Source of the DNA: Candidatus Gemmiger faecigallinarum
Lineage (GTDB): Bacteria; Bacillota; Clostridia; Oscillospirales; Ruminococcaceae
Reading direction: 5' to 3'
Assembly (NCBI GenBank): GCA_019120395.1
Contig: DWVD01000071.1
Span: 1-35,315 of the forward strand
Length of the DNA stretch: 35,315 nt
This document shows positions 3,023 to 20,759 of the stretch, in pieces (within the stretch, counting starts at the first letter, position 1; every line of letters starts with the position of its first letter). Made by a program: the position numbers and the translations under genes. The notes beneath the pieces are model-generated. The model was not told where the DNA came from and did no database searches. It was given only the letters and a program-made list of their open reading frames with translations.

Positions 3023-3742
3023 TTACAGGCTCCTTTCCGGATAGGGATTTTCAGTGTCGCGCTTGCGGAACCACTGGATCAGCAAAATCGAGATGGACAT
3101 CTTGACCATATACTGGGCGCTGCGCCACAGGTTCAGATAGCTTTGGCCGGCAATGCGCTCGCCCATGGTCACCTGCACCTCCCTGACTTTGGCGCCGTTC
3201 TTGATCAGGTAGCTGATGGTATCCGGCTCGGGGCCGTAGTTCAGGTTCTGGGCAAATTCCTCCACCATGGCGCGGTTGAACATGCGCATGCCGCTGGTGG
3301 GGTCGCAGATGGCGCGCCCGGTGGTCAGCCGGATGGACCAGCTGATGATATAGCTGCCCAGCATGCGCAGCGTTTTGGGCTTTTTCACCGTCAAAAAGCG
3401 GCTGCCGATGACAATGTCCGCCCCGGCTTCCAGCGCTTCCAGCATGGGGGCGATATATTCGGGGCGGTGCTGGCCGTCGGCATCCAGCTGCATGGCGCAG
3501 TCGTAGCCGTTCTCGGCGGCGTAGCGCAGCCCGGTCTGGAAGGCCCCGGCCAGCCCCAGGTTGATGGGCAGGTCGATCAGGTGATAGCCGTGGGCGCGGC
3601 AGATGGCGGCGGTCTTGTCCCGGCTGCCGTCGTTGACGACCACGTAGTCGTACTGCGGGTACTGGGTGGTCAGCTCCTCGACCACGCGGACGATGTTTTC
3701 CTCCTCGTTGTGGGCGGGGATGACGATGAGTAATTTGGACAT
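3023..3742 (-). CDS. GT2 glycosyltransferase, dolichol-phosphate-mannose-synthase-like
   Basis: 239 residues from an ATG preceded by AAGGAG. GT-A family 2 features: LLIVIPAHNEEENI at the N-terminus, VVNDGSRD at 36-42 (nucleotide-binding Asp), MQLDADGQHRPEYI at 84-97 (DXD-like metal site), IGSRF and CDPTSGMRMFNR. This set matches DPM1-type polyprenol-phosphate mannosyl- or glucosyltransferases. There are no multiple C-terminal membrane helices, only a short hydrophobic segment (SISILLIQWF), so membrane attachment may depend on the adjacent DUF2304 protein. The expected product, a polyprenyl-phosphate hexose, would feed outward-facing GT-C enzymes such as the PIG-V-like and DUF2142 proteins in this window. 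Confidence 0.88.
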   Translation of the reverse strand: MSKLLIVIPAHNEEENIVRVVEELTTQYPQYDYVVVNDGSRDKTAAICRAHGYHLIDLPINLGLAGAFQTGLRYAAENGYDCAMQLDADGQHRPEYIAPMLEALEAGADIVIGSRFLTVKKPKTLRMLGSYIISWSIRLTTGRAICDPTSGMRMFNRAMVEEFAQNLNYGPEPDTISYLIKNGAKVREVQVTMGERIAGQSYLNLWRSAQYMVKMSISILLIQWFRKRDTENPYPERSL

Positions 3743-3865: not shown

Positions 3866-4993
3866 TTACAGGCTCTGTATCAGTTTATCAAACACGGCGT
3901 CCCATGTAAAGTGCGCCAGGGCGTTTTGTTTTGCGGCGGCAGCCCGTTTTTGGGCTTCGGCGGGGTCGTCAAGCAGCCTGGCCAGCCCGGCGCGGATGGC
4001 GTCCGGCGTGGTGTCGGGCAGAAAAAACGCGCTTTGGCCGGGCAGAAGCTCCTCGGTGCCGGCGGTGGGGGTGCACAGGATGGGGCAGCCGCAGCCGGCG
4101 GCCTCCAGCAATGTGGTGGGCAGGCCCTCGGCGTAGCGGGTGGGCAGGCAGTAGCAGTCGGCCCCGGCCAGCAGCCGCACCGCCCGGCCGTGGTCCAGTG
4201 CGCCCAGGTAATGCACGCGCGGCGGCGCTTCGGCGCGCAGCGGCTCCAGCAAGGGACCGTCCCCGGCGGCGGCCAGCACCACGCCGGGCAGGGCGGACAC
4301 CGCCTCCGCCAGCTCCCGGATGCCTTTTTCGGGGATCATGCGGCCCAGAAAGACCACCAGCTTTTCGCCGTTCGGGCAGAGGGCGGCGCGGGTCAAATCC
4401 GGCGGCTGGGGCGCGGCCAGCTCGGCGGCCAGGGCGTCGGGGTCGATGGCGTTGGGCATGGTACTGCGGGCGTCGACGCCAAAGGTTTTCAGCCAGCGGC
4501 AGCTGGCCAGCGACACGCCGTAGAAAGGCGCGCCGGTGCGGCGGACCAGCGCGCAGGCGGCGTGCTCGTACATACGGCCGGCCAGCCCGATGACGCCGCC
4601 GCCCATGGGCATGTACCCGGTGGAATGGTCGATGACCACCGCGGGGATGCCCCGGCGCTTTGCCGCGCGGGCGGCCCAGACGCTCTCGACATACATGCGG
4701 GTCTGGACCACGCACAGGTCGATGGACTGCGCAAAGATCCGGCGTTCCAGCGCCGAAAGCCGGCCGCCCGGCTTTGGCACCGGGAAACGCCCCTTCATCA
4801 CCGGCCACACCGGCAGGCGATAGATCTCGATGCCGTCGGGGTCGATCTCCTGCTCCGGCAGGCCGGGCAGGGCGCTGGTGACCACAAGGGCGCGGCAGCC
4901 GTGCTGCACCGCCTTGCGGGCCAGGTTCCAGGTATACCGCTCCACCCCGCCCGGTGTGGGCAGGTACTGGGCGGAAAAAAAGCAGATGGTCAA
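3866..4993 (-). CDS. GT4 family glycosyltransferase (TTG start)
   Basis: 375 residues. An open frame continues upstream into the next gene, but the family N-terminus (TICFFSAQYLPTPGGVERYT) starts at a TTG at 4991-4993, preceded by GGGAGG with an 8-base spacer, so TTG is taken as the start. The GT-B fold shows the glycine-rich GGVERYTWNLA loop, FLGRMIPEKGI at the start of the second Rossmann domain, AAGDGPL, and the donor-binding EGLPTTLLEAAGCGCPI (the EX7E motif). It is a retaining, nucleotide-sugar-dependent enzyme of the GlcNAc/mannosyl-type GT4 group, acting on the cytoplasmic membrane face. Donor and acceptor cannot be read from sequence. It lies 50 bases after the DUF2142 gene and 123 bases before the GT2 gene. 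Confidence 0.9.
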   Translation of the reverse strand: MTICFFSAQYLPTPGGVERYTWNLARKAVQHGCRALVVTSALPGLPEQEIDPDGIEIYRLPVWPVMKGRFPVPKPGGRLSALERRIFAQSIDLCVVQTRMYVESVWAARAAKRRGIPAVVIDHSTGYMPMGGGVIGLAGRMYEHAACALVRRTGAPFYGVSLASCRWLKTFGVDARSTMPNAIDPDALAAELAAPQPPDLTRAALCPNGEKLVVFLGRMIPEKGIRELAEAVSALPGVVLAAAGDGPLLEPLRAEAPPRVHYLGALDHGRAVRLLAGADCYCLPTRYAEGLPTTLLEAAGCGCPILCTPTAGTEELLPGQSAFFLPDTTPDAIRAGLARLLDDPAEAQKRAAAAKQNALAHFTWDAVFDKLIQSL

Positions 4994-5043
4994 AACAGTA
5001 TCCTCCCAAAGGGCAAACGGGGGCAAAAGCGCCCGGCGGGGCT

Positions 5044-7698
5044 TTACAGCGCGATGACGGCCAGCATGGTGTTCAAAAGCACGCCGGCGTTCACCATGCA
5101 CAGCGCGCAGACCAGGCCGGACCCGGCTTTTTGGCCGTCGGCGGCCTGCAGGCCGCGGGGGGCAAGCGCCGCCAGCATGGCCGGCAGCACCGGCAGGAAA
5201 TACCGTCCCTGCAGGCCGTACAGCGTCTCGCTGTAGGTGGGGGTCCAGGTCAGGCACCCCGCCACCGAGAGCGCGCAGCACAGCCCGCCCAGCACCAGCA
5301 GCGCGGCGCGGGCGCGGCGGCCGGGCAGGGCCTCGCCTTTGGCGGGCAGCGCCGCCCAGGCCAGCAGCAGGTACAGCGCCGTCACCCAGCCCCAGGCCAG
5401 GTCCATGGTGTAGTAGCCCAGGCTGCCGCCCACCAGCGTGCGGATGTAGTGGTCGCCGTTTTGGATCACCGAGTTGACCAGCAGCCGCAGCGTGTCGGCC
5501 GGGTGGGTCAGGATATATCCCGGCGTGTAGCAGATGGCGTCGTCGCCGGTGGCAACGCTCTGGCTCTCGCGGACGGCGGCGTTGGCCTCGGTCTCGGCGG
5601 AAAGTTCGGCGCGGTCCAGCGGGTAGCGCTCGGAGTCCTCGGTGCCGATGGTCACGCCGAACGCTTCAAACAACGCCACGGTCTCGGCGCTGGAATAGAT
5701 CGCCTTGAACTGGGAGGAACGCCCCTCGGCCGCGACGCGGTCAAGCCAGACGGGAAGCTCGTCCGGCCAGGGGGCGCGGTCCAGCATGCAGTAGGACAGC
5801 GCAAAGACAAAATCGCGGTCGGAAAGCCGGGGCTGGGTGATTTCCTGCGGGCTGAAGAAAAAACTTTGCGCCAGCAGCGCCATGGTCGTATCCCCGTTGC
5901 GCAGCGCGTCGGCCCAGAAGGTCACCTCGGCCTCCGGGGCTTCGGCGCCCTCGGCGTACCAGTACAGGCGGCGGACGTAGTTTTCCAGCGTGTTCTCAGC
6001 CAGGTCCTCGCGGTAGACCAGCGTGGAACCGGTATCCCCGGGATCTTCGGCGTCCGCCTGGGCGTCCCCGCCGGAAGATTCGGCCTCCGGCGCGCCGTGG
6101 GCAGGGCCGGAGGGGCCGGATGCATCGGCGGCCAGGGCGGCGCCGCCGGCCTGTACGGCAGTCTGCGCGGCGGAGGTATTCTCCGCCGCCTGGGGCTCAG
6201 CCGTGCCGCCGGTCATGGCGGTGCCCAGCATGGTGCTGTTCAGCGCCAGCGTCAGCGCCAGGCAGACGGTCAGGTAGCCGGCTTTCCACAGCGCGGGGCG
6301 GGGCAGGGCCAGCCGCCTGCCGGGGATGCACAGCACCAGCAGCGCCAGCGGCAGGTAGACCGCCTTGCCGGGGCACATCAGCAGGCCGGCGGCGGCCATG
6401 GCGGCCAGCAGCTTGCGGCCGGGGGCTTCGGGCGCAAAGGCCGCCCGCATCGCCAGCGCCGCAAAGGCAAAGCACAGCCCCAGCAAAAGCGAGTCCCGGC
6501 TGAAGGACGCCGCCAGGTGCAGCGTCATGGGCAAAAGCGCCGCCGCGGCAAACACCCGCCGGCCAAAGGGCGCGTATTTGACCGCCGCCGCGGTCAGCAG
6601 TGCAAAGCAGACAAGGTTGGCCAGCCGGCCCAGCACCAACGCCGGCACAAAGCCCAGCCGCAGCACAAAGGCCAGGAACACCGCCGCCGCGCTGGGCAGG
6701 TAAAGCAGCGGGTTCTCGTCGGTCTGGGCCTCCTGATACTCGGCATGGCTGTCGAACGCATCGGGCGAGAGGGTGAACAGGTCGTCGGCAAAGGCCTGCC
6801 AGGCCCACACGGTGGTGCCGGTCTCCTGGTCCTGCAGGGCCGTGTTCACGTCGTGCTCGCGGCGGTAGCTCATGCTGATGGGCACATGCCCCATCTGCCA
6901 GTCCTCGTCCGAGAGCGCGTTCGCCCACCGGCAGGCCAGCGTGAAGGACTGGTTGATGTGGTATTTCTCGTCCGGCGCGCCGTAGGGCGGGATGATGACG
7001 GTGTACGCCACGCCCAGCGCCAGCACCAGCACAAAAACCAGGCGGTGCAGCGCAAATCTGCCCCGCAGCGCGCTGCGCACGCCAAAGAACACCACCGCCA
7101 GCGCCAGCGCCGCCGCCAGCCAGTAATACCGGGTCAAAAACCCGCCGATCTGCCGGTAGGTCACCAGCAGGGCCAGCGTGCCGTCGATCTCGGCGCCGTC
7201 CACAGCGGCGTTTTGCTGCCACAGCGCGGTGGCGGCGGAGTGCCCCGCGCTCAGCCGGCCGGCGCCCTCATAATGGGGGGTCAGCGTGACGGTGTAGCTG
7301 CGGCCCTCGCCGCCCGTTACGGTGCGGTCCAGCCCCAGGCCGGTGTACTGGCCCGGCAGGATGGCGGCCATGTCTCCGGTGCTTTGGGCCAGCACCTCGC
7401 CGGTGGAAGCGTCGGTCAGCGTCAGCTCCAGCGTGCCGGCGGGCTGCTCGCCCTCCACGCCAAAGACAAAGGCCATGGCGATCAGGTCGTCGTCAAAGGC
7501 AAAGGTCTGGCTGACGCTTTGCTCCACCATGGTGTAGGCCGAGTAATCATCGCTGATGCGGGCGGACAGCGCCTTGCTGCCCTGGCCCCGCACCGCAGTG
7601 TACCAGGCCAGGACAAAAACGGCAAAGCACACCGCCGCGGCCGCCAGGGCTGCAAAGGTGTGCCGGTGCTGTTTGAAGGTCTGTTTCCAGTTTGCCAT
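5044..7698 (-). CDS. DUF2142 membrane protein with an inserted DUF4214-like pair
   Basis: 884 residues, AAGGAG before the ATG. A first membrane helix (16-34) is followed by an outside beta-rich region (45-180) and many helices. IIPPYGAPDEKYHI at 235-248 is the DUF2142 hallmark, and GLQGRYFLPVLPA at 828-840 is the conserved C-terminal block. DUF2142 proteins are GT-C-like and occur in teichoic-acid and polysaccharide loci. Between membrane parts, residues 497-560 form an Ala/Gly/Glu/Pro-rich linker. Residues 572-686 then look like two DUF4214 repeats: YVRRLYW, FWADALRNGD, FFFSPQE, then FVFALSYCMLDR, VWLDRVAAEGR, IYSSAETVALFEAFGVTIG. DUF4214 normally occurs in surface proteins, so this is an unusual extracellular insertion. 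The enzyme role is inferred, not shown. Confidence 0.82.
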   Translation of the reverse strand: MANWKQTFKQHRHTFAALAAAAVCFAVFVLAWYTAVRGQGSKALSARISDDYSAYTMVEQSVSQTFAFDDDLIAMAFVFGVEGEQPAGTLELTLTDASTGEVLAQSTGDMAAILPGQYTGLGLDRTVTGGEGRSYTVTLTPHYEGAGRLSAGHSAATALWQQNAAVDGAEIDGTLALLVTYRQIGGFLTRYYWLAAALALAVVFFGVRSALRGRFALHRLVFVLVLALGVAYTVIIPPYGAPDEKYHINQSFTLACRWANALSDEDWQMGHVPISMSYRREHDVNTALQDQETGTTVWAWQAFADDLFTLSPDAFDSHAEYQEAQTDENPLLYLPSAAAVFLAFVLRLGFVPALVLGRLANLVCFALLTAAAVKYAPFGRRVFAAAALLPMTLHLAASFSRDSLLLGLCFAFAALAMRAAFAPEAPGRKLLAAMAAAGLLMCPGKAVYLPLALLVLCIPGRRLALPRPALWKAGYLTVCLALTLALNSTMLGTAMTGGTAEPQAAENTSAAQTAVQAGGAALAADASGPSGPAHGAPEAESSGGDAQADAEDPGDTGSTLVYREDLAENTLENYVRRLYWYAEGAEAPEAEVTFWADALRNGDTTMALLAQSFFFSPQEITQPRLSDRDFVFALSYCMLDRAPWPDELPVWLDRVAAEGRSSQFKAIYSSAETVALFEAFGVTIGTEDSERYPLDRAELSAETEANAAVRESQSVATGDDAICYTPGYILTHPADTLRLLVNSVIQNGDHYIRTLVGGSLGYYTMDLAWGWVTALYLLLAWAALPAKGEALPGRRARAALLVLGGLCCALSVAGCLTWTPTYSETLYGLQGRYFLPVLPAMLAALAPRGLQAADGQKAGSGLVCALCMVNAGVLLNTMLAVIAL

Positions 7699-7767
7699 AG
7701 CTGCTCCTTCAATTTATCTGGGATCTGTCTGGCCGGATAGGGCCGGGAAAGGCGGCGGAAAGGCCGG

Positions 7768-8280
7768 TCAGCCGCCCAGGCGCACGCCGAAAGCCGCTTC
7801 CACCGCGGCGGCCCAGCGGCCGTCCCGGCGCAAAATCGCCTCCACCGCGCCCCGCACCGCGCCCTCGCCGCCCTTTTGGGGCAGGCGGCAGTCCGCGCGG
7901 GCGGCAACCTCCGGCGCGGCGTCGGCCGGGCAGGCAACAAAGCCGCACAGCGCCATGGCGGCCAGGTCGTTCAGGTCGTCGCCGCAGTAGGCGACCTCCT
8001 CTTTGCCATAGCCCTGCTTTGCCATAAAGTCCCGCAGAAACGCGGCCTTATGGTGGACATCCTGGTACAGGTATTCCACCTTCAGCTCGGCGGCTCGGCG
8101 GCGCACGGCCTCGCATTCCCGGCCGGTGCAGATCATCACCTGCATGCCCGCCGCATGGGCCAGCACGATGCCGGCCCCGTCCTTGATGGCAAACTTTTTC
8201 AGCTCGTTGCCGTTGGCGTCATAGTAGACGCCGCCGTCGGTCATGGTGCCGTCCACGTCCAGAACCAGCAGCCGGATCAT
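7768..8280 (-). CDS. KdsC-type HAD sugar-acid phosphatase
   Basis: 170 residues from ATG 8280; upstream codons in the open frame lack family similarity. HAD motif I is LVLDVDGTMTDGG (nucleophile Asp8, acid/base Asp10), motif II is CTGRE at 51-55, the conserved Lys is K78, and motif III/IV is GDDLNDL at 100-106. The absence of a cap domain and the TDGGVYYDANGNELKKF hairpin are typical of KdsC, the tetrameric 3-deoxy-manno-octulosonate 8-phosphate phosphatase, and of the HAD domains attached to CMP-sialate synthetases. It would remove the terminal phosphate from a newly formed 2-keto-3-deoxy sugar acid before CMP activation. Its neighbours, an aldolase and a KdsB-type enzyme, support this. The exact substrate is unknown. 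Confidence 0.85.
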   Translation of the reverse strand: MIRLLVLDVDGTMTDGGVYYDANGNELKKFAIKDGAGIVLAHAAGMQVMICTGRECEAVRRRAAELKVEYLYQDVHHKAAFLRDFMAKQGYGKEEVAYCGDDLNDLAAMALCGFVACPADAAPEVAARADCRLPQKGGEGAVRGAVEAILRRDGRWAAAVEAAFGVRLGG

Positions 8281-8336
8281 CTGCGTCACATCCTTGTCAT
8301 TGTTTTCAGCATGCCCCAAACTCCCGCAGCAGGCGC

Positions 8337-9908
8337 TCAGGCCTGTTCGTAGGCGCTGGGGGTCACAAAGGTCACCGGCAGCCCGCAGCTGCGGATGGCC
8401 TCGGCCATGGCGGCGTGGAAAGCCGGCCCGCGCCCGGTGTGGGCGTGCAGGCTGGCGTCGGCGTAGGCGGGCCGGCCGGCCGTGTAGCCGTCGGTGCCGG
8501 CCAGCAGCACCGCCTTTGCGCCGCACTGTGCCAGCAGCCGCAGCAGCATCACCACGCTGTTGCCGCCCTGGGCAAAGGTCCCGGCCACCCGGTCGTAACC
8601 CACCACGCAGCTCTGCGCGGGCTGCACCTGGGGGCGCAGGTTGCTGGTCAGGATCACCGGGCAGGGGAAAGCGGACATCTTGTCCAGCCGCTTGGCGTTG
8701 GTAAAAAAGGCGTAGTCCGGCGTCAAAAATTCCGGCACAAAGTTGGCCGAGACCACCGCGTCGGCGTCCGCGCCCCGCAAAGCGGCCACGCGGGCGCGGG
8801 TATCCGGGTCGGCCAGGGTGGCGCCGGGGGCCAGCACCAGCACCCGCCTGCCGGCAAAGGCGGCCTTTAAGCTTTCCAGCGCCGCGGCGTCGTCCACCCG
8901 GCGGCTTTGGTATTCCCGGTACAGCCGGTCGGCGTAGGCCTTGTCAAAGGCGGTCTTTTTGCCGGGTTCGATGCCGGAAAGAATGTGGTTGATGTCCCGA
9001 TTGGTCAGATCGCCCTTGGCCAGATAATGCTCGGCATAGTTGCGATGCAGGTTGTACCGCGCCGACAGGAAATAGGCCGGGGTGTAGCCCCATTGGGTCT
9101 CGCCCTTGATGGGGGCGATGTAGTCCTGGATGGCGTCCATCAGCTCGTCGATGTCATAGTGGGCACCCAGGGTATCGTTCATATAGTCGGCCACCAGCTC
9201 GATGGGCAGGTTGCCGGGGATGCGGCCCATGCCCATCAGGCTGGCGTCCACGGTGGTGTCCCGCTGCAGGTGCTTGTCGATAAACTCCTGCGCCAGGCAG
9301 AAGCTAAGCGCCATGTTCTCGTGCAGGTGCAGGCCCACCCGGATGCCGGGGTCGAGGTTGTGGTCCACCAGGCTGACGATGCGCTCCAGATCCCGCCGCC
9401 GCATGCTGCCAAAGGTGTCCACAATGGAGAACTGGTAGGGCAGGATGGCGTTGACCTGGTCTAAAATCCACAAAATATCCTTGTCGGCGTAGCCCATGAT
9501 GTTGATGGGGTTGATGGACAGCTTGTACCCGCGGGCCTTGACCTCGCGGGCAAAGTCCATGCCGTCGCGGATGTCGTAGTCGTGGGCGGTGATGCGGATC
9601 ATCTCGATGCCCTGGCCGGAGTATTCGCTCAGCTTGGAAATGTCGTAGTTGGAGCGCATGGCCATGCCGGAGTACATGGTTCCGCGGGAATCCTCCGGCA
9701 GCAGGCGGTTGAGCTCCTCGATGGTGTTGCAGACGGTGACGTCGGGGTCATACTCGCCCACATTGCGCAGAAAGCCGACTTCCACAATATCGGTGCCGGC
9801 GCGGGTCAGCGTGCGGATGATCTGGCGGGCCGGGGCAAAGCCCCACCGCCAGTCGTTCACATAGCCGCCGTCGCGCAGGGTGCAGTCCAGAAGTTTGACG
9901 TTGGGCAT
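8337..9908 (-). CDS. HMGL-type aldolase fused to an MptE/GT42-like Rossmann domain
   Basis: 523 residues, AAGGAG 8 bases before the ATG. Residues 1-290 form a TIM-barrel aldolase of the HMG-CoA lyase / 4-hydroxy-2-oxovalerate aldolase group. LLDCTLRDGGYVNDW carries catalytic Arg12 and metal ligand Asp13, GLHLHENMA at 192-200 carries the metal ligands His194 and His196, and MGMGRIPGNLPIE at 225-237 matches the conserved Gly-rich strand. Such enzymes join or split pyruvate and an aldehyde using a divalent metal. Residues 351-523 form a separate domain: VLVLAPGATL, SANFVPEFLTPDYAFF, GGNSVVMLLRLLA, LLAGTDGYTAG. This resembles DUF115/MptE-like and GT42 sialyltransferase-type Rossmann folds. Inferred job: forming a 2-keto-3-deoxy sugar acid for the KdsC- and KdsB-like neighbours. 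Databases may name it simply aldolase catalytic domain protein. Confidence 0.82.
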   Translation of the reverse strand: MPNVKLLDCTLRDGGYVNDWRWGFAPARQIIRTLTRAGTDIVEVGFLRNVGEYDPDVTVCNTIEELNRLLPEDSRGTMYSGMAMRSNYDISKLSEYSGQGIEMIRITAHDYDIRDGMDFAREVKARGYKLSINPINIMGYADKDILWILDQVNAILPYQFSIVDTFGSMRRRDLERIVSLVDHNLDPGIRVGLHLHENMALSFCLAQEFIDKHLQRDTTVDASLMGMGRIPGNLPIELVADYMNDTLGAHYDIDELMDAIQDYIAPIKGETQWGYTPAYFLSARYNLHRNYAEHYLAKGDLTNRDINHILSGIEPGKKTAFDKAYADRLYREYQSRRVDDAAALESLKAAFAGRRVLVLAPGATLADPDTRARVAALRGADADAVVSANFVPEFLTPDYAFFTNAKRLDKMSAFPCPVILTSNLRPQVQPAQSCVVGYDRVAGTFAQGGNSVVMLLRLLAQCGAKAVLLAGTDGYTAGRPAYADASLHAHTGRGPAFHAAMAEAIRSCGLPVTFVTPSAYEQA

Positions 9909-9970
9909 GGTGGGATCTCCTTAATTTGTGCAGATGTGCAAATTGGAAATTGGGAATGAAAAATTAGGAA
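9909..9970. repeat. AT-rich intergenic spacer with GGAATT-like iterations
   Basis: The 62 bases between the aldolase and VanZ-like genes are much richer in A/T than their surroundings. They contain repeated variants of AAATT-GGAA / AATTAGGAATTAAG plus a short GTGCA-ATGTGCA iteration. The aldolase ribosome site occupies the first bases. The rest looks like a remnant of a dispersed AT-rich repeat. No gene is seen. Confidence 0.4.
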
Positions 9971-10525
9971 TTAAGAATTCAGGTGCGGCCGCTGGCCGCG
10001 ATTGGAAGGGAAAAAACGGCTTGAGATCACTTTCGCAAGCAGGTAGCCGAGCAGGAAGCCGATGGCGTTGCACAGAATGTCATCGATATCAAAGATGCCG
10101 CGGCCGGCAAGGGCCTGTGCAAGTTCGATGGGAAGGATCGTCCCGAAACAAATGGCAACCGCGCTGCGCCAGGAATTCTTTTTCAGGTGATTCAAAATGC
10201 AGCAAATCAGCACGCCTTCCGGCAGATACATGATGACATTGAACAGATACAGTTCCAGGTCAACGTAACGGCGCTGTCGGAAAATGGAGAGCAGCTCCCG
10301 GAAGGGGATCAGGTTGACGGCGGAAACGGCGGCGTCGTTGCTGCTGCGGCTGAGGATGGTGACATAGACCAGTGCGATCAGATAGACTGCCAGCCAGCAG
10401 ATCAGCACGGCAAACAGAATGCGGGACGCGGGCAGGCGTTTGGCCTTGCCCACAATCAGGATCATGCCCGAAACCGCCAGCATCAAAACAAAGAGCACCA
10501 GCAGGACAGGAAGAACGACCCGCAT
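9971..10525 (-). CDS. VanZ-like membrane protein
   Basis: 184 residues, AAAGGAG 10 bases before the ATG. Four to five membrane helices. Family blocks: AVNLIPFRELL, NVIMYLPEGVLI, PIELAQALAGRGIFDIDDI, then LCNAIGFLLGYLLAKV, which together are the conserved acidic and Asn-containing segments of VanZ. VanZ-like proteins are linked to teicoplanin resistance and, more broadly, to the cell envelope; their reaction is unknown. GC content looks lower than in the flanking genes. Its position between the CMP-sugar synthetase (51 bases) and the aldolase (62 bases), on the same strand, suggests a part in the glycan locus, perhaps in handling lipid-linked or exported polymer. Confidence 0.85.
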   Translation of the reverse strand: MRVVLPVLLVLFVLMLAVSGMILIVGKAKRLPASRILFAVLICWLAVYLIALVYVTILSRSSNDAAVSAVNLIPFRELLSIFRQRRYVDLELYLFNVIMYLPEGVLICCILNHLKKNSWRSAVAICFGTILPIELAQALAGRGIFDIDDILCNAIGFLLGYLLAKVISSRFFPSNRGQRPHLNS

Positions 10526-10576
10526 ACAGGGACAGCTCCTTTCTTTCCGGAAAAGCGGTACAGGCAGCGGGAAAAC

Positions 10577-11317
10577 TCAGCCCTGCGTTTCGCCGCGCTC
10601 CTGCAATATGCGGGAGACCAGGGCCAGGTCCTTGGGGGTGTCCACGCTGACGGTCTTGTAGGGGCTTGTGATGGCATGTACCTTGTGGCCGTTTTCCACA
10701 AAGCGCATCATGTCGTTTTCCTCGGCCTTTTCCAGCAGCGACTTGGGGGTGTCGTGGTAGAAGGCCAGCGCCCGGCGGCTGTAAAGCTGGATGCCGGTGA
10801 CCTTCTCGTACTCGAAATCCAGCGTGCCTTTCGGGTAGGGGATGGGGCTGCGCGAGATCATCAAAATCTCCCGCGCCGCGTTGGTGACCACCTTCTGGTT
10901 GGAAAAGTCCACCACGTCGGCGGGGTGCTCCATGACGTTGGTCAGCACCGCCACGTAGTACGGGTCCTGCGGCAGCGTTTTGGGCAAGATCAAATCAAAG
11001 GCCGCGGCGTTGATCAGCGGCTCGTCCCCCATGACCTGCAAATAGAGGTCGGCCTCCAGTTTTGTGCTGACCTCCCAGATGCGGCCGGTGGGGGTGTCGT
11101 GGTCGGGGCTGGTCATGCAGTAGTCCATGCCGTAAGCCTTGCAGGCGTCGGCGATGCGCTCGTCGTCGGTGGCGACGACCACGCCGGAGAGCGCCGGGCA
11201 CTTTTTGGCTTCCCGCCAGACCCACCAGATCATGGGCCGGCCCAAAATATCCGCCAGCGGCTTGCCCGGCATGCGGGAGCTTTGATACCGCGCGGGGATG
11301 ACTGCGATGGTTTTCAT
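10577..11317 (-). CDS. KdsB-type CMP-sugar synthetase, divergent
   Basis: 246 residues. The start at ATG 11317 is set by GAGGTG 6 bases upstream and by the family N-terminus MKTIAVIPARYQSSRMPGKP. It matches 3-deoxy-manno-octulosonate cytidylyltransferase throughout: PLADILGRPMI, VVVATDDERIADACKAYG, the substrate loop MTSPDHDTPTGRIWEV, LQVMGDEPLI, and SVDTPKDLALVSRIL at the C-terminus. Two canonical positions differ: TDR of the substrate loop is TGR (77-79), and the QGDEP metal/nucleotide motif is MGDEP (96-100). Reaction by family: CTP plus a 2-keto-3-deoxy sugar acid gives CMP-sugar plus pyrophosphate. The changes suggest a substrate other than Kdo. In a Gram-positive host the product would serve a surface glycan rather than lipid A. 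Confidence 0.85.
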   Translation of the reverse strand: MKTIAVIPARYQSSRMPGKPLADILGRPMIWWVWREAKKCPALSGVVVATDDERIADACKAYGMDYCMTSPDHDTPTGRIWEVSTKLEADLYLQVMGDEPLINAAAFDLILPKTLPQDPYYVAVLTNVMEHPADVVDFSNQKVVTNAAREILMISRSPIPYPKGTLDFEYEKVTGIQLYSRRALAFYHDTPKSLLEKAEENDMMRFVENGHKVHAITSPYKTVSVDTPKDLALVSRILQERGETQG

Positions 11318-11453
11318 GGTAACACCTCGGATCTGTGATGCAAAAAACAATGTTGTGCGCCGGGGGAGCCCGGCGGCTGTATGGCGATGCCCATTCATGG
11401 GCACATTGCCCGGCGGGCGTGAACGGGGGTGAAAGGCTGCCGCCCCCTCGTAG

Positions 11454-11475
11454 GGGCCGATGATTTCATCGGCCC
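11454..11475. repeat. Perfect 10-base-pair palindrome with 2-base spacer
   Basis: GGGCCGATGA, TT, TCATCGGCCC. It belongs to the palindrome cluster of this intergenic region and follows a CGTAGG-like lead that also resembles the lead of the palindrome at 11886. Confidence 0.8.
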
Positions 11476-11496
11476 GTAAGGTCCGCGCCGCCGCAA

Positions 11497-11523
11497 GGTT
11501 TCCGGGACGATGCGAGCATCGTC
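11497..11523. repeat. 27-base direct repeat, copy 1
   Basis: Identical to 11791-11817. Each copy starts GGTTTCCGGGACGATGC and ends in the palindrome GACGATGC-GA-GCATCGTC. The bases after each copy (TCCTGCGAGA and CCCTACGCAA) remain similar. Confidence 0.85.
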
Positions 11524-11588
11524 TCCTGCGAGACACAGGGCAAGGCATTGCCGGGCTTTGCAGGATATTTCCATCGCCAACCGGCAAT

Positions 11589-11713
11589 GCACCCCTCTGT
11601 CTGCGCCTTGCGGCGCATCCACCTCCCCTTGCAGGGGAGGCTTTATCAAGCGCCTGCCACCCGGAAGGCTCCCCTGCAAGGGGAGCTGTCGCTGCCAGGC
11701 GACTGAGGGGTGC
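11589..11713. repeat. 125-base inverted-repeat element, MITE- or REP-like
   Basis: The ends GCACCCCTC (11589-11597) and GAGGGGTGC (11705-11713) are perfect inverted repeats, extending to 11 of 12 with the next bases. Inside, CTCCCCTTGCAGGGGAG (11623-11639) and CTCCCCTGCAAGGGGAG (11669-11685) are exact reverse complements. Smaller hairpins sit at 11604-11617 (GCGCC/GGCGC) and 11688-11703 (GTCGC/GCGAC). No coding capacity. The layout fits a small non-autonomous mobile or REP-type element. Confidence 0.65.
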
Positions 11714-11790
11714 GGTACCCGGCCTTGCCAATACCCTCCTGGTTTGCCGCAGCCTTGTAATGCAGGGCTGCGGGGGCAAAATCTGCCGTT

Positions 11791-11817
11791 GGTTTCCGGG
11801 ACGATGCGAGCATCGTC
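11791..11817. repeat. 27-base direct repeat, copy 2
   Basis: Exact copy of 11497-11523, 267 bases downstream of copy 1. The pair brackets the 125-base inverted-repeat element, as if duplicated or recombined together with it. Confidence 0.85.
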
Positions 11818-11885
11818 CCCTACGCAAGGCCGGTGCGGCTTGTATCGCTTATCGGTCTCGGCAGGGCGCTCCCAATGGTTTGTAG

Positions 11886-11905
11886 GGCGGGCGATTTCGC
11901 CCGCC
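11886..11905. repeat. Palindrome GGCGGGCGA / TCGCCCGCC
   Basis: Perfect 9-base-pair inverted repeat with a TT spacer, preceded by TGTAG. Confidence 0.75.
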
Positions 11906-11985
11906 GCCCAGCCTTGCGATATGACAGGGCCTTGCGGTGCGGCGCTTATACAAAACCGCAGCATTCCTCTGCCGCAAACTTCCCC

Positions 11986-12005
11986 GGCGGGCGTGAACGC
12001 CCGCC
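11986..12005. repeat. Palindrome GGCGGGCGT / ACGCCCGCC
   Basis: Perfect 9-base-pair inverted repeat with a GA spacer. The left arm plus flank (CCCGGCGGGCGTGAACG, 11983-11999) recurs exactly at 11409-11425, where the right arm is lost. Confidence 0.75.
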
Positions 12006-12065
12006 CTGCAATGCAGGTGAGACAGGCGGCGAACCGGGGGCGGCAGGCCGCTGGTGCTGCGGCGG

Positions 12066-13055
12066 TCAACCCTCTGCCATCGCCTTGGCCTCCTCCAGCC
12101 CGATGAAAATGTTCTCCTCCGCCGCGGTGAATCCCCGCAGCACCCAGCTCTGCACCGTCACGGCGCGCTTGAATTTGCCGGGCAGGCAGAAGTTCAGCAC
12201 CTCGCTGGGCATGGTGCGCTCCAAAACCACGGCGTCGGGGAACAGCGCCCCGTAGTCGGTCTCGTCCCGCGGGTGGGTCTTGATATACAGCGGGCCGTCG
12301 GCGTATTTGGCCGCCACGGCCCGGAACATCGCGTCCTGCTCGGCCTGGGTCATCAGGCCGTCGGCCACGAAGCTGCGGGGCAAAAGCAGGGTGGCGTTTG
12401 CCAGCGCGGCGGGGTCGTCGGGCAGCGGCCGGGTCAAAAACACCCCGCGCACCGCGGCCTTCTCGGCGGGGGTCAGGCTTTCCAGCAGCGCGCGCTTGGA
12501 GAAAGCTGCCAGCTTTTCCGGCGGGAAAATGCGGCACTTTGCCGCGTCCTCGCTCTCCACCAACCGGCAGCAGGGGCTGTCGCCCCAATAGAGATAGCCG
12601 CGGCCCTTCTGCCGGGCGGCAAAGTCCGGCGCGGCGCGCTGCTCGTCCAGCAGGTGCTGGTCGGGGTCCAGCGTGCCGCCCACCGTGTCCTCGCAGAGCG
12701 TATACCCCGCCCGCAGGTCCTGCAAATAGCGCCCCAGCGCGCTCCAGTCGTTGCAGATATAGATGGCGCTGTACCGGGCCGGGTCCAGCTTCAGTCCGCA
12801 CTGGCGCTCGAACATACGCCGGCCCTGCCAGTGCTGCAGCGGCCCGGCGGGGGCGATGCCGGGGCAAAGGCGCTCGTCCGCGATCTGCACCCCGGCAAAG
12901 GCGCCGCAGGCAACCAGCTTTTCCGCCAGCCGTTCGGCGCCCGGCACCTGGGCCGACAGCACCGCCGCCTGGCCGCCGCCCGCCCGCAGCGCCCGCACCA
13001 GCGCGATCAGCACGTGGTAGGCGGTGTGGCAGATGTAAAGGTCCGGCTTTGCCAT
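12066..13055 (-). CDS. GT52/polysialyltransferase-like glycosyltransferase
   Basis: 329 residues. GGAGGG lies 7 bases before the ATG, inside the end of the upstream Wzt gene (3-base gap). The N-terminus DLYICHTAYHVLIALVRAL matches the start of GT52 and polysialyltransferase-type GT-B enzymes, followed by CEDTVGG near 121-127. In the C-terminal half, PLYIKTHPRDETDYG (255-269) and TMPSEVLNFCLPGKF (281-295) correspond to the His-Pro and SxxE-type motifs of bacterial sialyltransferases that bind the CMP donor. By family the donor would be a CMP-activated sugar, and a CMP-sugar synthetase is encoded next downstream. No sialic-acid genes (neuB, neuC) are seen, so a different CMP-ulosonate is the more likely donor. 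Acceptor unknown. The family call is by motif and is moderate. Confidence 0.68.
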   Translation of the reverse strand: MAKPDLYICHTAYHVLIALVRALRAGGGQAAVLSAQVPGAERLAEKLVACGAFAGVQIADERLCPGIAPAGPLQHWQGRRMFERQCGLKLDPARYSAIYICNDWSALGRYLQDLRAGYTLCEDTVGGTLDPDQHLLDEQRAAPDFAARQKGRGYLYWGDSPCCRLVESEDAAKCRIFPPEKLAAFSKRALLESLTPAEKAAVRGVFLTRPLPDDPAALANATLLLPRSFVADGLMTQAEQDAMFRAVAAKYADGPLYIKTHPRDETDYGALFPDAVVLERTMPSEVLNFCLPGKFKRAVTVQSWVLRGFTAAEENIFIGLEEAKAMAEG

Positions 13056-13058
13056 CCC

Positions 13059-14348
13059 TCAGCCCTCCGTTTCGGTGCCCAGCAGCCTGACGGCGGGGAA
13101 GTGCACCCGCCCCCAGCCCGCCGCCCAGGTGGGCATGGACAGGTCGGCGCTGGTCACCTCGAAGGCAAACTCGGTCACCGGCTTGTCCAGGCAAACGGCC
13201 TGGGCCAGCGCGCCGTCAAAGATGTCCAGGTAGAAGAAATACTGCCCCTCGCCCAGCAGCGACGGGTCAAACTCGAACTCGGTGGCGTACAGGCGGCCCG
13301 GCTCGGCCACGCCCAGGTTCACCGGATGGGTGATGCCCACCGGCGTGGAATCCCGGTAATGCAGGTTCATCTTCAAATTGACGCCGGCAAACGGCTCCGA
13401 CACCCGCCAGGTGATGCGGATGCGCATTTTCTCGGTGTCGGCAAAGACGCTGGATTCCTTGCCCGCAAAGTCCAGGCTTTCCAGCCGCAGCCGCTTGCCG
13501 GCGCTCTGGTTCATGCGGGAGACGTCCTTCAAGTCGTAGTGCACCACGTTCACGTCGGTGGTGTCCATATAGATGGCGATGGCCTGCTCCACGTCGCCGT
13601 CAAAAATGACGCGGCCCTTGTCCAGCACCACGCAGCGGGTGCACAGCTGCCGGATGGTGGACATGTTGTGGCTGACGTACAGCACCGTGCGGCCCTCCTG
13701 GCCGGCCACGTCGCTCATCTTGCCCAGGCATTTCTGCTGGAACTTCATGTCGCCCACGGCCAGGACCTCGTCCATGACCATGATCTCGCTGTCCAGGTGG
13801 GCGGCCACCGCAAAGGCCAGCTTGACGAACATGCCGCTGGAATACCGCTTGACCGGCGTGTCGATGAACTCGCCGCACTCCGAGAAGGCGATGATCTCGT
13901 CCACCTTGGCGTCGATCTCGGCCTTGGTCATGCCCAAAATCGCGCCGTTCATGTAGATGTTCTCGCGGCCGGTCATCTCGTTGTTGAAGCCGGTGCCCAC
14001 CTCCAGCATGCTGGCGACGCGGCCTTTCAGCCGGATCTCGCCCTCGGTGGGGGCGGTGATGCGGGACAGGATCTTCAAAAGCGTGGACTTGCCTGCGCCG
14101 TTGCGGCCAATGATGCCCAGCGCCTCGCCCTGGTAGACGGTCAGGTCCACGCCATTCAAAGCCATAAAGGTCTGGCCGAACAGCCGCTGGTCGGTGCCGA
14201 TGACGGTGTTGGGGTCCTCCTTGCCGCGGACGCGGGCCCACCAGCTTTGCAGGTCGTGGGTCAGGGTGCCGCCGCCGATCTGGCCCAGCTTGTATTGCTT
14301 TTTCAGCCCCCGCACTTCAATGACGGGGTTTTTCTCGGTAACAGACAT
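13059..14348 (-). CDS. wzt: Polysaccharide ABC exporter ATPase with Wzt C-terminal domain
   Basis: 429 residues. ATG 14348 is chosen because TAAGGGGG precedes it and the N-terminal extension from 14387 would overlap the permease gene. Walker A is GRNGAGKST at 81-89, the signature loop is KRYSSGMFVKLA around 167-178, and Walker B is IMVMDEVLAVGD at 189-200, with the switch His in VSHNMS. This is the Wzt/TagH type. Residues 285-425 add a beta-sandwich Wzt-C domain (ITWRVSEPFAGVNLKMNLHY, GEGQYFFYLDIFDG, WGRVHFPAVRLL). In Gram-negative O-antigen exporters Wzt-C binds the modified non-reducing end of the glycan before export. Its presence here predicts export of a capped or specifically modified polymer. 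It works with the permease encoded just upstream. Confidence 0.9.
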   Translation of the reverse strand: MSVTEKNPVIEVRGLKKQYKLGQIGGGTLTHDLQSWWARVRGKEDPNTVIGTDQRLFGQTFMALNGVDLTVYQGEALGIIGRNGAGKSTLLKILSRITAPTEGEIRLKGRVASMLEVGTGFNNEMTGRENIYMNGAILGMTKAEIDAKVDEIIAFSECGEFIDTPVKRYSSGMFVKLAFAVAAHLDSEIMVMDEVLAVGDMKFQQKCLGKMSDVAGQEGRTVLYVSHNMSTIRQLCTRCVVLDKGRVIFDGDVEQAIAIYMDTTDVNVVHYDLKDVSRMNQSAGKRLRLESLDFAGKESSVFADTEKMRIRITWRVSEPFAGVNLKMNLHYRDSTPVGITHPVNLGVAEPGRLYATEFEFDPSLLGEGQYFFYLDIFDGALAQAVCLDKPVTEFAFEVTSADLSMPTWAAGWGRVHFPAVRLLGTETEG

Positions 14349-14358
14349 GGCGGCCCCC

Positions 14359-15234
14359 TTACACGGTATCCATAAAGGTTTTCTCAATGCGGCTGAACAG
14401 GATCACGCCGATAAACAGCGCCGCCGCCGTGAACACCAGGCTGTAAATGAACATGCCCATGTCCGCCGAGCCGGTGCCCAGCGTGGCGGTGCGGAAGATC
14501 TCCACCGGGGCGGTCATGGGGTTCAGGCGCATCAAAAAGGCAAGGCGCGGGCTGTTGCCCAGGGTGGACAGCGGGTAGACCACGGGGGAGACGTACATCC
14601 ACAGCTGCACGCCGAAGCTGACCGCGATGGCCAGGTCCCGGTACTTGGTGGTCAGGCTGGAGACAATGATGCCCACGCCAAGCCCCAGCAGCATGACCTG
14701 CACGATCACCACCGGCAGCACCCACATCCAGGCGGTCAGGTGCATTTCGGCGCCGGTGGCCCGGAAATACAGCCAGAAGATCACATACATGGCTGCCTGG
14801 ATGGCAAAGTTGATCAAACTGGTCAGCACCTGGCTGATGGGCATGGTCAGGCGGGGAAAATACACCTTGCCGAACACCTGGCTGTTGGCCACAAAGGTGT
14901 TGGCGGTGTTGTTGATGCAGCTGGCAAAAAAGGTCCACACCGTGTTGCCTGCCATGTAGAACAGGAAACTGGGGGTGCCGTCGGTGGAAAGCCCGGCGAT
15001 GCCGCCGAACACCACGTTGAACAGCACGCTGGTCAAAAGCGGGTTCAAAAGCACCCAGGCGGGGCCGAGGATGGTCTGCTTGTACAAGACCGCAAAGTTG
15101 CGCTTGACGAACATGACGATCAGGTCGCGGTAGCGCCACAGCTCCCGCAGGTCGATGTCGAACCAGCCGGTGCGGGGGCGGATAATGGTGGTCCACTCGC
15201 CCTGGACGCCGCCTGCTTTGGAAAGGTTTGGCAT
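14359..15234 (-). CDS. wzm: Polysaccharide ABC exporter permease (Wzm/TagG family)
   Basis: 291 residues with six membrane helices of the ABC-2 type. N-terminal amphipathic WFDIDLRELWRYRDLIVMFV, the conserved VLYKQTILGPAWVLLNPLL and the C-terminal LNPMTAPVEIFRTATLG are typical of Wzm, TagG and RfbA-type exporters. A GGGAGA ribosome site precedes the ATG. The gene is first in the run of minus-strand glycan genes and ends 10 bases before the ATPase ATG, so the pair is translated together. Partner: the Wzt-type ATPase. Role: flipping an undecaprenyl-linked glycan to the outer face. Confidence 0.92.
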   Translation of the reverse strand: MPNLSKAGGVQGEWTTIIRPRTGWFDIDLRELWRYRDLIVMFVKRNFAVLYKQTILGPAWVLLNPLLTSVLFNVVFGGIAGLSTDGTPSFLFYMAGNTVWTFFASCINNTANTFVANSQVFGKVYFPRLTMPISQVLTSLINFAIQAAMYVIFWLYFRATGAEMHLTAWMWVLPVVIVQVMLLGLGVGIIVSSLTTKYRDLAIAVSFGVQLWMYVSPVVYPLSTLGNSPRLAFLMRLNPMTAPVEIFRTATLGTGSADMGMFIYSLVFTAAALFIGVILFSRIEKTFMDTV

Positions 15235-15435: not shown

Positions 15436-16818
<1,383 letters not shown>

Positions 16819-19578: not shown

Positions 19579-19760
19579 AAAATCACAACCCCCCAAAAGA
19601 TCCGGCCGGGCGGCGGGACCGCGCCCCGGCGTGCTGTGCACGGCCCGCGGCGGCTCCGCTGCGCCGTTGCCCCGGCGCAGACGCCCTGATAAAAACAAAT
19701 GGATACAGCAAATGCGCGGCCCGGCGGCTTCCCATGCCCCGCCGGGGATCCTGGCAAATC

Positions 19761-19799
19761 CTACTGAATCAGTGTAGCATCGGGGCGGAAGCGTGTCAA
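19761..19799 (-). promoter_or_regulatory. feoAB promoter with overlapping palindromic operator
   Basis: On the minus strand, TTGACA (19794-19799, perfect -35), a 17-base spacer and TACACT (19771-19776, -10). Over the -10 lies ACTGA-T-TCAGT (19763-19773, perfect 5+1+5), offset within a 17-mer whose ends CTAC/GTAG also pair (19761-19777). The placement fits repression by an iron-sensing protein of the Fur or DtxR class; the motif itself is not a textbook box. The leader to the ATG is about 185 bases. Confidence 0.6.
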
Positions 19800-19830
19800 T
19801 AGCGGGCGAACGGCGGAAAGGCGCGGCAGC

Positions 19831-19872
19831 GCAGGCGGCCGGCCCTCCCCGCGGGGAAGGCCGGCCGCCTGC
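19831..19872. terminator. GC-rich hairpin after the aldose-epimerase gene
   Basis: A 14-base-pair perfect stem (19831-19844 with 19859-19872) is capped by a loop that itself contains CCCC/GGGG. It lies just past the stop of the epimerase gene on the minus strand. The U-tract is poor, so it is a weak or Rho-assisted terminator. Confidence 0.55.
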
Positions 19873-19886
19873 CGGGAACCCCCGGC

Positions 19887-20759
19887 TTATTCGATGGTGA
19901 TGCCCCAATGGGCGGTCAGCGACGCGCCGGGGGCCAGCTCCTCGTGGCGGCCGGCCTCGTTGACGCTGTTGGCCCAGCCGTTCCACGGCTCCATGCAGAC
20001 AAAACGCTCGGCGTCCTGCTGCCACAGCACGCCGTTGCCAAAATGGCTGTCAAAGTCCACCGTGACCCGGTGGCCGTTGCCGGAATCGGTAAAGACCATG
20101 GGGCTCTCGACGCCGGTCAGCAGGCGGATGGAATCGGCCGCGCCCGGCTTGCGGGTCAGCGTGATGGCGGCGGGGGCGGCGGGCTGCTCGCCCTTGGCGT
20201 CCTCCGAGCAGGTGGCGGCGCGGACGTCAAACTTGACGTTTTCCAGCGCCGACGCGGCAAAATAGGGGTGGAAGCCAAAGCTGAAGGGCAGAGGCTTTTC
20301 GCCGGTGTTTTTGACGGTCAGTGCCAGCTCGGCGCGGTTGCCGGCCAGTGTGTAGCGCATGGTCAGCTGGAAGTCGAAGGGGTACAGGAATTTGGTCAGG
20401 CCGTTGGGGGTCAGCTCCAGCTCGACTGCCTCGTCGGTGGCGGAAGCGACCTTCCAGGGCACCAGGTCGGCAAAGCCGTGGATCTCCATGGGATAGGCGG
20501 CGCCGTCAAACAGATGCACGCCGCCGTCCGGCCTGCCGCAGTTGGGGAACAGGATGGGGACGCCGCAGCGGGGGCGGTCGGTGGATTCAAAATTGCCGTC
20601 CCGCAGCCAGAGGTATTCGTCGCCGTTTTTGGTAAAGCTGGTGGCCATGCCGCCCTTTTCGGGGGTCACGGTCAGGGCGCAGCCGCCGTCGGTCAGGGTC
20701 AGGGTGTCGTAACGGACGCCGTGCTTTTCGTAGACGCCCCGGGTCAGTTGAGAAGCCAT
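19887..20759 (-). CDS. Aldose 1-epimerase family protein
   Basis: 290 residues from ATG 20759, with AAAGGA 10 bases upstream. A galactose-mutarotase-like beta-sandwich: EKGGMATSF, RCGVPILFPNCGRPDGG, the catalytic His in EIHGFADLVPW, FSFGFHPYFAAS (second conserved His), and VCMEPWNGWANSVN near the C-terminus, with the likely general-base Glu in MEPW. The sequence is closer to the D-hexose-6-phosphate-epimerase and YeaD-like branch than to classic GalM. It interconverts alpha and beta anomers of a sugar. Divergent arrangement with uxaC, each with its own promoter, suggests shared sugar-related control; that link is inferred. Confidence 0.85.
   Translation of the reverse strand: MASQLTRGVYEKHGVRYDTLTLTDGGCALTVTPEKGGMATSFTKNGDEYLWLRDGNFESTDRPRCGVPILFPNCGRPDGGVHLFDGAAYPMEIHGFADLVPWKVASATDEAVELELTPNGLTKFLYPFDFQLTMRYTLAGNRAELALTVKNTGEKPLPFSFGFHPYFAASALENVKFDVRAATCSEDAKGEQPAAPAAITLTRKPGAADSIRLLTGVESPMVFTDSGNGHRVTVDFDSHFGNGVLWQQDAERFVCMEPWNGWANSVNEAGRHEELAPGASLTAHWGITIE

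Follow-up and report, generated by a model that had tools for sequence, protein, structure and literature searches.

A pyruvate-type aldolase gene cassette as a likely KdsA-independent route to a CMP-activated ulosonic acid in Gemmiger

A KdsB-aldolase-KdsC gene set in a polysaccharide cluster

We analysed a stretch of 35,315 nucleotides from Candidatus Gemmiger faecigallinarum (contig DWVD01000071.1, positions 1 to 35,315; here the window), in which the gene of a pyruvate-type aldolase lies among genes resembling those that activate 3-deoxy-D-manno-octulosonic acid (Kdo) with cytidine monophosphate (CMP). This window makes up contig C52 in an assembly of 2.58 Mb (GCA_019120395.1; completeness 82.85%, contamination 5.32%). 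Its minus strand carries, in this order, genes for a permease, an ATPase, a GT52-like glycosyltransferase, a KdsB-like cytidylyltransferase, a VanZ-like protein, the aldolase, a KdsC-like phosphatase, a DUF2142 protein and two glycosyltransferases. A first-pass annotation of this DNA had described an HMGL aldolase and KdsC-like, KdsB-like and GT52-like genes as same-strand neighbours between positions 7768 and 13055; all four indeed lie on the minus strand, each scoring above its family cut-off. The features concerned are the following.

7768..8283, minus strand: KdsC-like HAD phosphatase (TIGR01670, 139.9 bits, cut-off 106.95; the coordinates take in one codon ahead of the ATG)
8337..9908, minus strand: HMGL/DRE-TIM aldolase with a C-terminal domain, 523 amino acids (PF00682, 52.6 bits, cut-off 29; the barrel spans residues 1 to ~335)
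8337..8894, minus strand: C-terminal domain of the aldolase protein (residues ~339-523), predicted sialyltransferase/MptE-like fold (structure model, Foldseek)
10577..11317, minus strand: KdsB-like CMP-ulosonate synthetase, by similarity, with altered sugar-pocket residues (NF003952, 215.7 bits, cut-off 193)
12066..13055, minus strand: GT52-like glycosyltransferase (PF07922, 29.0 bits, cut-off 26.1)

These four genes are under constraint and are not chance reading frames, as indicated by a third-position GC content of 0.87-0.90, like that of the enolase gene, and by nonsynonymous divergence (dN) well below synonymous divergence (dS) for all four genes against two congeners (simple Nei-Gojobori estimates; against G054, dN 0.026 and dS 0.33 for KdsB, dN 0.060 and dS 0.37 for the aldolase). 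The order Wzm-Wzt-GT52-KdsB-aldolase-KdsC-DUF2142-GT1-GT2 was found again, without the VanZ-like gene, in the four congeners examined (L042-L045) and, in part, outside the genus. Together with a CMP-transferase gene at 75 of 80 aldolase loci (see below), this recurrence bears out the conservation of the gene set, which the first-pass annotation had proposed to check. The closest named records to the window aldolase are from Gemmiger (84% identity to uncultured Gemmiger, 74% to G. formicilis ATCC 27749), and the annotations seen for long-form members of the family went no further than "aldolase catalytic domain-containing protein." The whole cluster occurs once more in the same assembly (contig C38, L041, 3434-14708), with an aldolase 76% identical to that of the window; this copy is either a paralogue or derives from a second Gemmiger-like species, given the 5.32% contamination.

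The aldolase occurs where KdsA and KdsD are missing

From 297 sampled genomes of the family, 98 matched and the 50 with both aldolase domains were used (in G250, the protein is in two pieces). None of these 50 genomes passed the cut-off of 314 bits for KdsA (TIGR01362), the window's genome reaching at best 113.8 bits, and none had a match above cut-off for the arabinose 5-phosphate (A5P) isomerase KdsD/KpsF (TIGR00393). The sole TIGR00393 match in the window's genome covers the C-terminal part of the profile and lies in a PtmE-like gene on contig C88. Could a 3-deoxy-D-arabino-heptulosonate 7-phosphate (DAHP) synthase be a hidden KdsA? We rejected this candidate, as the matches reached 92-120 bits against 314, in frames of mostly 340-412 amino acids that we read as DAHP synthases, and B. 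subtilis likewise gave matches below the cut-off. A search of 20 genomes, among them that of the window, found no LpxC (PF03331), in agreement with the earlier statement that no lipid A gene is present; in the window's genome and four nearly complete congeners, neither LpxC nor a KdsA above cut-off was found. Contig C88 itself carries a legionaminic-acid-type operon of LegC, PtmE-like, NeuB and NeuC genes (L005) in this LpxC-negative genome.

Evidence for what the aldolase replaces came from searching the 297-genome sample with the KdsB-like protein of the window. It was found in 38 genomes, of which 35 encode the full-length aldolase, as compared to 15 of the 259 genomes without that KdsB (Fisher p 3.8e-30, a descriptive value because the genomes are related). 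The three KdsB-bearing genomes that lack the aldolase (G008, G202 and G257) all belong to one genus, g9, which is represented by four genomes. Their locus reads Wzm-Wzt-GT52-KdsB-KdsA-KdsD-KdsC, with KdsA at 386-389 bits (cut-off 314) and KpsF/KdsD at 300-305 bits (cut-off 203.7). The fourth genome, G127 (99% complete), carries KdsB-aldolase-KdsC at the same locus and has no KdsA above cut-off. Between G127 and G008, identity is 93% for Wzm, 93% for Wzt, 79% for GT52 and 88% for KdsC, but only 39% for KdsB, which is 95% identical between two KdsA-type genomes of the genus. The DNA alignment of the two genomes ends before the exchanged block (~2.2-2.4 kb) and picks up after it. We read this locus, from its sequence, as one putative ulosonate-making cassette having been exchanged for another, with the phosphatase and the transferase kept. 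The earlier proposal that the aldolase takes the place of the phosphoenolpyruvate (PEP)-dependent synthase ahead of KdsC and KdsB is, hence, strongly supported on the genetic side, with KdsA and KdsD standing in its place in three sister genomes.

The barrel and the C-terminal domain of the aldolase

The model of the aldolase protein (mean predicted local distance difference test score, pLDDT, 92.1) gave 3dxi as the top Foldseek match, followed by the 4-hydroxy-2-oxovalerate aldolases 8ih7 and 1nvm. R12, D13, H194 and H196 are invariant in all 72 aligned rows (the window and 71 of the 80 loci) and align with the arginine and the Asp-His-His metal site of 1nvm. The column of DmpG His21, presumably the catalytic histidine, is occupied by Tyr16 in the window aldolase. 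Because the score with the equivalog of 4-hydroxy-2-oxovalerate aldolases (TIGR03217) is 60.0 bits, far below the cut-off of 286, the protein has the fold and metal site of these enzymes yet stands outside their family. It thus shares with DmpG/BphI the DRE-TIM barrel, the arginine and the metal site, while differing in the tyrosine, in its polysaccharide gene context and in an additional C-terminal domain. The nearest solved relative of the barrel is BVU_2661 (3dxi; 158 bits with our profile), an entry titled only "putative aldolase," and this match is confined to the barrel.

The C-terminal domain, which we collected from the window and 68 loci and modelled alone (pLDDT 95.3), had as its best Foldseek match human ST8SiaIII with CMP-3FNeu5Ac (5bo9; E 9.6e-4, probability 1.00, TMq 0.50), with further matches to 2wnb, a mammalian sialyltransferase in complex with CMP, and to an MptE-type pyrophosphokinase (HPPK; 8sd5). 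An hhalign comparison with a PF01973 family gave 90%, and Pfam searches with E up to 1 on the 69 domains returned weak MptE-like (16 of 69), D-lyxose isomerase (7 of 69) and CST-I (2 of 69) matches, with none for the domain of the window's own aldolase. A profile search against the sequences of solved structures yielded only noise (best E 0.058). We have fair confidence in a sialyltransferase/MptE-like fold as modelled: The domain would have this fold in common with GT29/GT42 sialyltransferases and MptE-like HPPK, whereas its sequence likeness to them is at noise level. It may be a CMP-sugar transferase or a CMP-sugar sensor. A His-rich stretch near the C-terminus of the protein is retained only among the closer relatives of the window. 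In the openly licensed literature that was searched, we found no description of a fusion of an aldolase with a sialyltransferase fold.

The partner enzymes and the sugar pocket of KdsB

The KdsB-like protein reaches the subfamily model NF003952 and stays below both NF009905 (232.5 versus 255 bits) and the equivalog TIGR00466 (123.2 versus 155.2). The glutamine ahead of the GDEP motif, which we take to contact Kdo in KdsB, is present in five aligned solved KdsB sequences and in the three KdsA-linked ones, and is replaced by methionine in the window. Across 80 aldolase-linked KdsB sequences, the window included, asparagine occupies this position 37 times, methionine and glutamine 21 times each and cysteine once; the S-x-R, K, DEP and VD residues, by comparison, show no variation in any of the 80. 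The histidine of the HxGIY motif is valine in the window; as it is also replaced in the KdsA-linked set, by proline, it is a poorer discriminator than the glutamine.

The phosphatase reaches its subfamily model (TIGR01670) and falls short of the equivalog NF007019 (134.8 versus 208 bits). It is, on our assumption, of type C0, and its solved relatives are 3e81 and 2r8e. The two residues mutated in 4hgq and 4hgr, which presumably determine phosphatase specificity, are R and E in the window protein. An identity as a KDN-9-phosphate phosphatase was rejected, since the best NCBIfam model, NF058599, scored 146.2 bits, below its cut-off of 180. Weakest of the four assignments is that of the transferase to GT52, with PF07388 (polysialyltransferase) at 15.8 bits, below cut-off; judged from its family and neighbours, it probably uses the CMP-sugar.

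Linkage of the aldolase to cytidylyltransferases

We examined the best 80 of 551 confirmed aldolase loci, scored with in-house profiles and calling genes adjacent when the gap was at most 600 nucleotides; part of these loci end at contig edges, and the counts take them as they are. The 75 loci with a same-strand cytidylyltransferase comprise 40 with an adjacent KdsB-like gene, 24 with an adjacent NeuA-like gene and 11 where it lies further off, leaving five with none. An adjacent HAD phosphatase was found in 45 of the 80 loci (32 KdsC-like, 13 of the HAD_2 type) and one further off in 9 more. In 47 loci from the window's own family, a set that partly overlaps the 80 (L056 and L116, for example, are one contig) and includes the second cluster copy of the assembly itself and three loci of one genome, the cytidylyltransferase was adjacent in 38 and missing in 9. 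Chance adjacency was rejected as an explanation: Among nine hand-picked short aldolases (L176-L184, 25-32% identical), no locus had a KdsB or NeuA gene. All of Wzm, Wzt, GT52, KdsB, aldolase and KdsC are contained in 24 fetched loci, some of them duplicates of one contig, and an aldolase-KdsB-HAD set, with the HAD protein from another family, lies on an alphaproteobacterial (Leisingera) plasmid.

Mapped on a quick FastTree tree, which shows clustering only, the type of cytidylyltransferase required 34 changes among six labels, against a mean of 76.4 for shuffled labels. As far as sequences tell, the type is clustered on the tree, yet partners of the same activity class appear to have replaced one another repeatedly.

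Some loci of the family are built differently. In L089 (Paenibacillus), an inositol-monophosphatase-like gene lies 3' of the aldolase. L147 encodes, at 7121-7720, an SIS-only protein (the isomerase half of KpsF, 95.9 bits) beside the aldolase and an NTP-transferase/APH fusion, without a CMP-transferase. On a Desulfobaculum plasmid (L141, 8846-13014), RfbH, two transketolase pieces and a barrel-only aldolase stand in series, and no cytidylyltransferase was found there with the in-house profile.

Flanking genes of the window

The remaining genes of the cluster are those of an exporter, of a membrane protein and of further transferases, with one apparent newcomer.

9971..10525, minus strand: VanZ-like membrane protein, between the KdsB and aldolase genes (PF04892, 78.1 bits)
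13059..14387, minus strand: ABC exporter ATPase, Wzt/TagH-like (PF00005, 78.5 bits; weak Wzt_C-like tail, PF14524, 24.2 bits, below 30.4)
14359..15234, minus strand: ABC-2 exporter permease, Wzm-like (PF01061, 63.4 bits)
5044..7698, minus strand: DUF2142 membrane protein with a DUF4214 insert, kept in the cluster (PF09913, 140.3 bits; PF13946, 25.5 bits; synteny)
3866..5281, minus strand: GT1/GT4-type glycosyltransferase, kept in the cluster (PF00534, 80.9 bits; synteny)
3023..3742, minus strand: GT2-type glycosyltransferase, kept in the cluster (PF00535, 104.1 bits; synteny)

Searching 20 other loci by tblastn (E 1e-4) gave no match to the VanZ-like gene, whose third-position GC content is 0.72, against 0.88 in its neighbours; the gene is probably a recent insertion and not a member of the pathway. 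Among the cluster genes of the window, none was recognised as encoding a sugar-modifying enzyme. The 748-base gap between the GT52 and KdsB genes (11318-12065) contains palindromic repeats, and a 20-mer from it has 21 matches in the assembly at up to one mismatch, with 0 for the reversed control, so that these repeats look like a dispersed family. Outside the cluster, an enolase gene on the opposite strand (15436-16818) adjoins the exporter genes, and FeoA and FeoB domains occur within a single reading frame of 941 amino acids at 17200-20025.

Discussion

Proposed pathway and product

We consider it likely that the KdsB-aldolase-KdsC set leads to a 3-deoxy-2-ulosonic acid activated with CMP and that a metal-dependent aldolase using pyruvate serves there in place of KdsA, although we infer each of these reactions. 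The aldolase would couple the enolate of pyruvate with a sugar-phosphate aldehyde to give a 2-keto-3-deoxy sugar acid phosphate, the KdsC-like phosphatase would take off the phosphate, the KdsB-like enzyme would activate the acid with cytidine triphosphate, and the GT52-like enzyme would move the sugar onto a glycan that is exported via Wzm/Wzt, in a cell free of lipid A. Where the aldolase is present, there is no A5P isomerase, so that the acceptor is probably a sugar phosphate drawn from central metabolism: As KdsD leaves together with KdsA, the aldolase would be independent of the arabinose 5-phosphate that this isomerase supplies, and ribose 5-phosphate would fit. The change of KdsB along with the synthase, its altered pocket residues and the loss of KdsD suggest that the product is a relative of Kdo, more likely than Kdo itself, while the retention of KdsC and GT52 across the exchange argues for a product of Kdo-like size.

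Compared to the Kdo pathway (KdsD-KdsA-KdsC-KdsB), the window has the same types of phosphatase and CMP-transferase, and sister species carry true KdsA and KdsD at the same locus; it differs in having a pyruvate-aldolase-type enzyme in place of the PEP-dependent synthase and A5P isomerase, in lacking LpxC and in the altered KdsB pocket. NeuB-type nonulosonic acid pathways (Neu5Ac, Leg, Pse, Kdn) likewise place a CMP-activated, sugar-derived keto acid on surface glycans, and some aldolase cassettes resemble them in their NeuA-like CMP-transferase; the aldolase cassette, however, is without NeuB, and no amino-sugar gene was recognised among the scanned open reading frames of the window.

Several observations weigh against this pathway or narrow it. 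The aldolase side of the exchange in genus g9 is represented by one assembled genome (G127). Tyr16 in place of DmpG His21 implies either a mechanism that deviates in its details or another reaction altogether. The Kdo-type glutamine is kept in 21 of the 80 aldolase-linked KdsB proteins, so that a product other than Kdo is not general; where it is kept, the sequence indicates that the product may well be Kdo itself. The transferase is a weak member of GT52 (29.0 versus 26.1 bits with PF07922), and CMP-sugars are not the donor of every GT52 enzyme. At 26 of the 80 loci, there is no same-strand gene of the KdsC or HAD_2 type; the phosphatase step is, therefore, not universal. An acetolactate-synthase-like thiamine pyrophosphate enzyme (at least 37% identity) lies near ten divergent aldolases (L095, L120, L123, L135, L147, L162, L166, L168, L170 and L172), with an HAD_2 gene at six of these loci. 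Since nine of the ten have no cytidylyltransferase, the aldolase product can have another fate, and these loci possibly represent a separate pathway around the same aldolase. Lastly, a gene resembling 2-keto-3-deoxygluconate (KDG) kinase directly follows the aldolase in six loci (L055, L060, L106, L124, L156 and L167), none of which has a KdsC-type or HAD_2-type gene; in L106 and L124, the encoded kinase matches a fusion model (KHG/KDPG aldolase/kinase) over its kinase half, and the others match that of L055 by blastp. The kinase loci fit a synthetic route poorly. The aldolase family as a whole probably has several products, and our claim is restricted to the KdsB/NeuA-linked forms.

Alternative explanations

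The same kinase genes are what one would expect if the aldolase ran in reverse, in the manner of KDG or sialic acid lyases, and cleaved or recycled a 2-keto-3-deoxy sugar acid, and aldolase reactions are reversible. We regard this as very unlikely, since the enzyme substitutes for KdsA and KdsD in a synthetic operon, between KdsB and KdsC, and since the cluster genes recognised in the window are those of transferases, membrane proteins and an exporter. We find it just as improbable that the product is a non-sugar 4-hydroxy-2-oxo acid, made for example from a small aldehyde and CMP-activated as a glycan decoration. The nearest characterised fold relatives are 4-hydroxy-2-oxovalerate aldolases and the KdsB pocket residues are unlike those of solved Kdo enzymes, both as this alternative would have it; yet a KdsC-type phosphatase and a GT52-type enzyme were retained when KdsA/KdsD and aldolase were exchanged, which points to a sugar phosphate of comparable size.

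A slightly poorer chance still falls to the possibility that the ulosonic acid is legionaminic acid from the genome's own NeuB, with the aldolase an unrelated neighbour. The first-pass annotation had proposed a pathway without KdsA or NeuB, and had named a co-occurring neuB homologue elsewhere in the genome as a reason to abandon it. The KdsA part held throughout the 50 aldolase genomes, and NeuB is missing from the window, but the genome does have NeuB: Its matches lie on contigs C88 and C47, the former with NeuC, LegC and PtmE-like genes and a score of 457.9 bits with TIGR03569 (cut-off 399.65). NeuB matches of at least 220 bits occur in 25 of the 50 aldolase genomes, whereas in the other 25, any match stays within 47.3 bits and falls on a site with a weak match to the KdsA/DAHP profile as well. 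Of these latter 25 genomes, 22 are at least 90% complete, and in 18 of the 22, the aldolase is adjacent to a cytidylyltransferase with no KdsA above cut-off. In G220, a single contig, NeuB lies 121 kb from the aldolase and has a NeuA-like gene of its own 3.5 kb away (a weak 34.9 bits with the in-house profile); a NeuA-like gene likewise lies ~4 kb from NeuB in G054 (a weak 29.4 bits, same profile). The CMP-transferase of the window is moreover of the KdsB type, and, with the NeuB of the window's genome as query, a NeuB-like frame turned up at just one of the 80 loci (L123; 47.8 bits). Because half of the aldolase genomes lack a full-strength NeuB, and because a weakly scoring NeuA-like gene lies near NeuB in both relatives checked (G220 and G054), we discarded NeuB as the origin of the keto acid; given also the distance between the two loci of G220, we judge the aldolase pathway unrefuted by the presence of NeuB.

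Least probable of all is phosphonate tailoring, in which a PEP mutase and a DRE-TIM enzyme would act together with the activation of a phosphonate by CMP. We rejected it since PEP mutase was above cut-off in just 2 of 20 genomes (in both ~2-4 kb from the aldolase) and unmatched in the other 18, including the window's genome and four congeners. Phosphonate clusters often contain cytidylyltransferases (PMC6697681), but the phosphonate nucleotidyltransferases described there belong to PF12804 and PF01467 and not to PF02348. The two loci with PEP mutase (L060 and L192, above 400 bits) have it within a KdsB-aldolase-kinase cluster, which suggests phosphonate decoration of the same polymer.

Significance

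No paper on such a gene set was found in the openly licensed literature, subscription papers lying outside the search. A wider reading of the aldolase pathway, which we put forward tentatively and rate a little short of an even call, is that it represents a third route to CMP-ulosonates, outside the PEP-dependent KdsA/NeuB superfamily and spread across surface-glycan loci of Bacillota, Gastranaerophilales (Cyanobacteriota) and Alphaproteobacteria. The aldolase would there make octulosonate-like acids other than Kdo, for instance from ribose 5-phosphate without an isomerase, and the fused sialyltransferase-fold domain would bind the CMP-sugar for transfer or for control of synthesis.

The exchange of cassettes gives two versions of one operon, which predict the same class of product through two chemistries. 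Should the proposed pathway prove true, ulosonic acid synthesis would have had its first step reinvented on an aldolase scaffold, and a function would be found for a family whose long forms, where an annotation was seen, are named by their catalytic domain only. Reversible pyruvate aldolases of this kind could serve in making rare sugars. Gram-positive gut bacteria would carry acidic, CMP-activated surface sugars that searches for kdsA and neuB overlook, and these sugars would be additional candidate ligands of host lectins.

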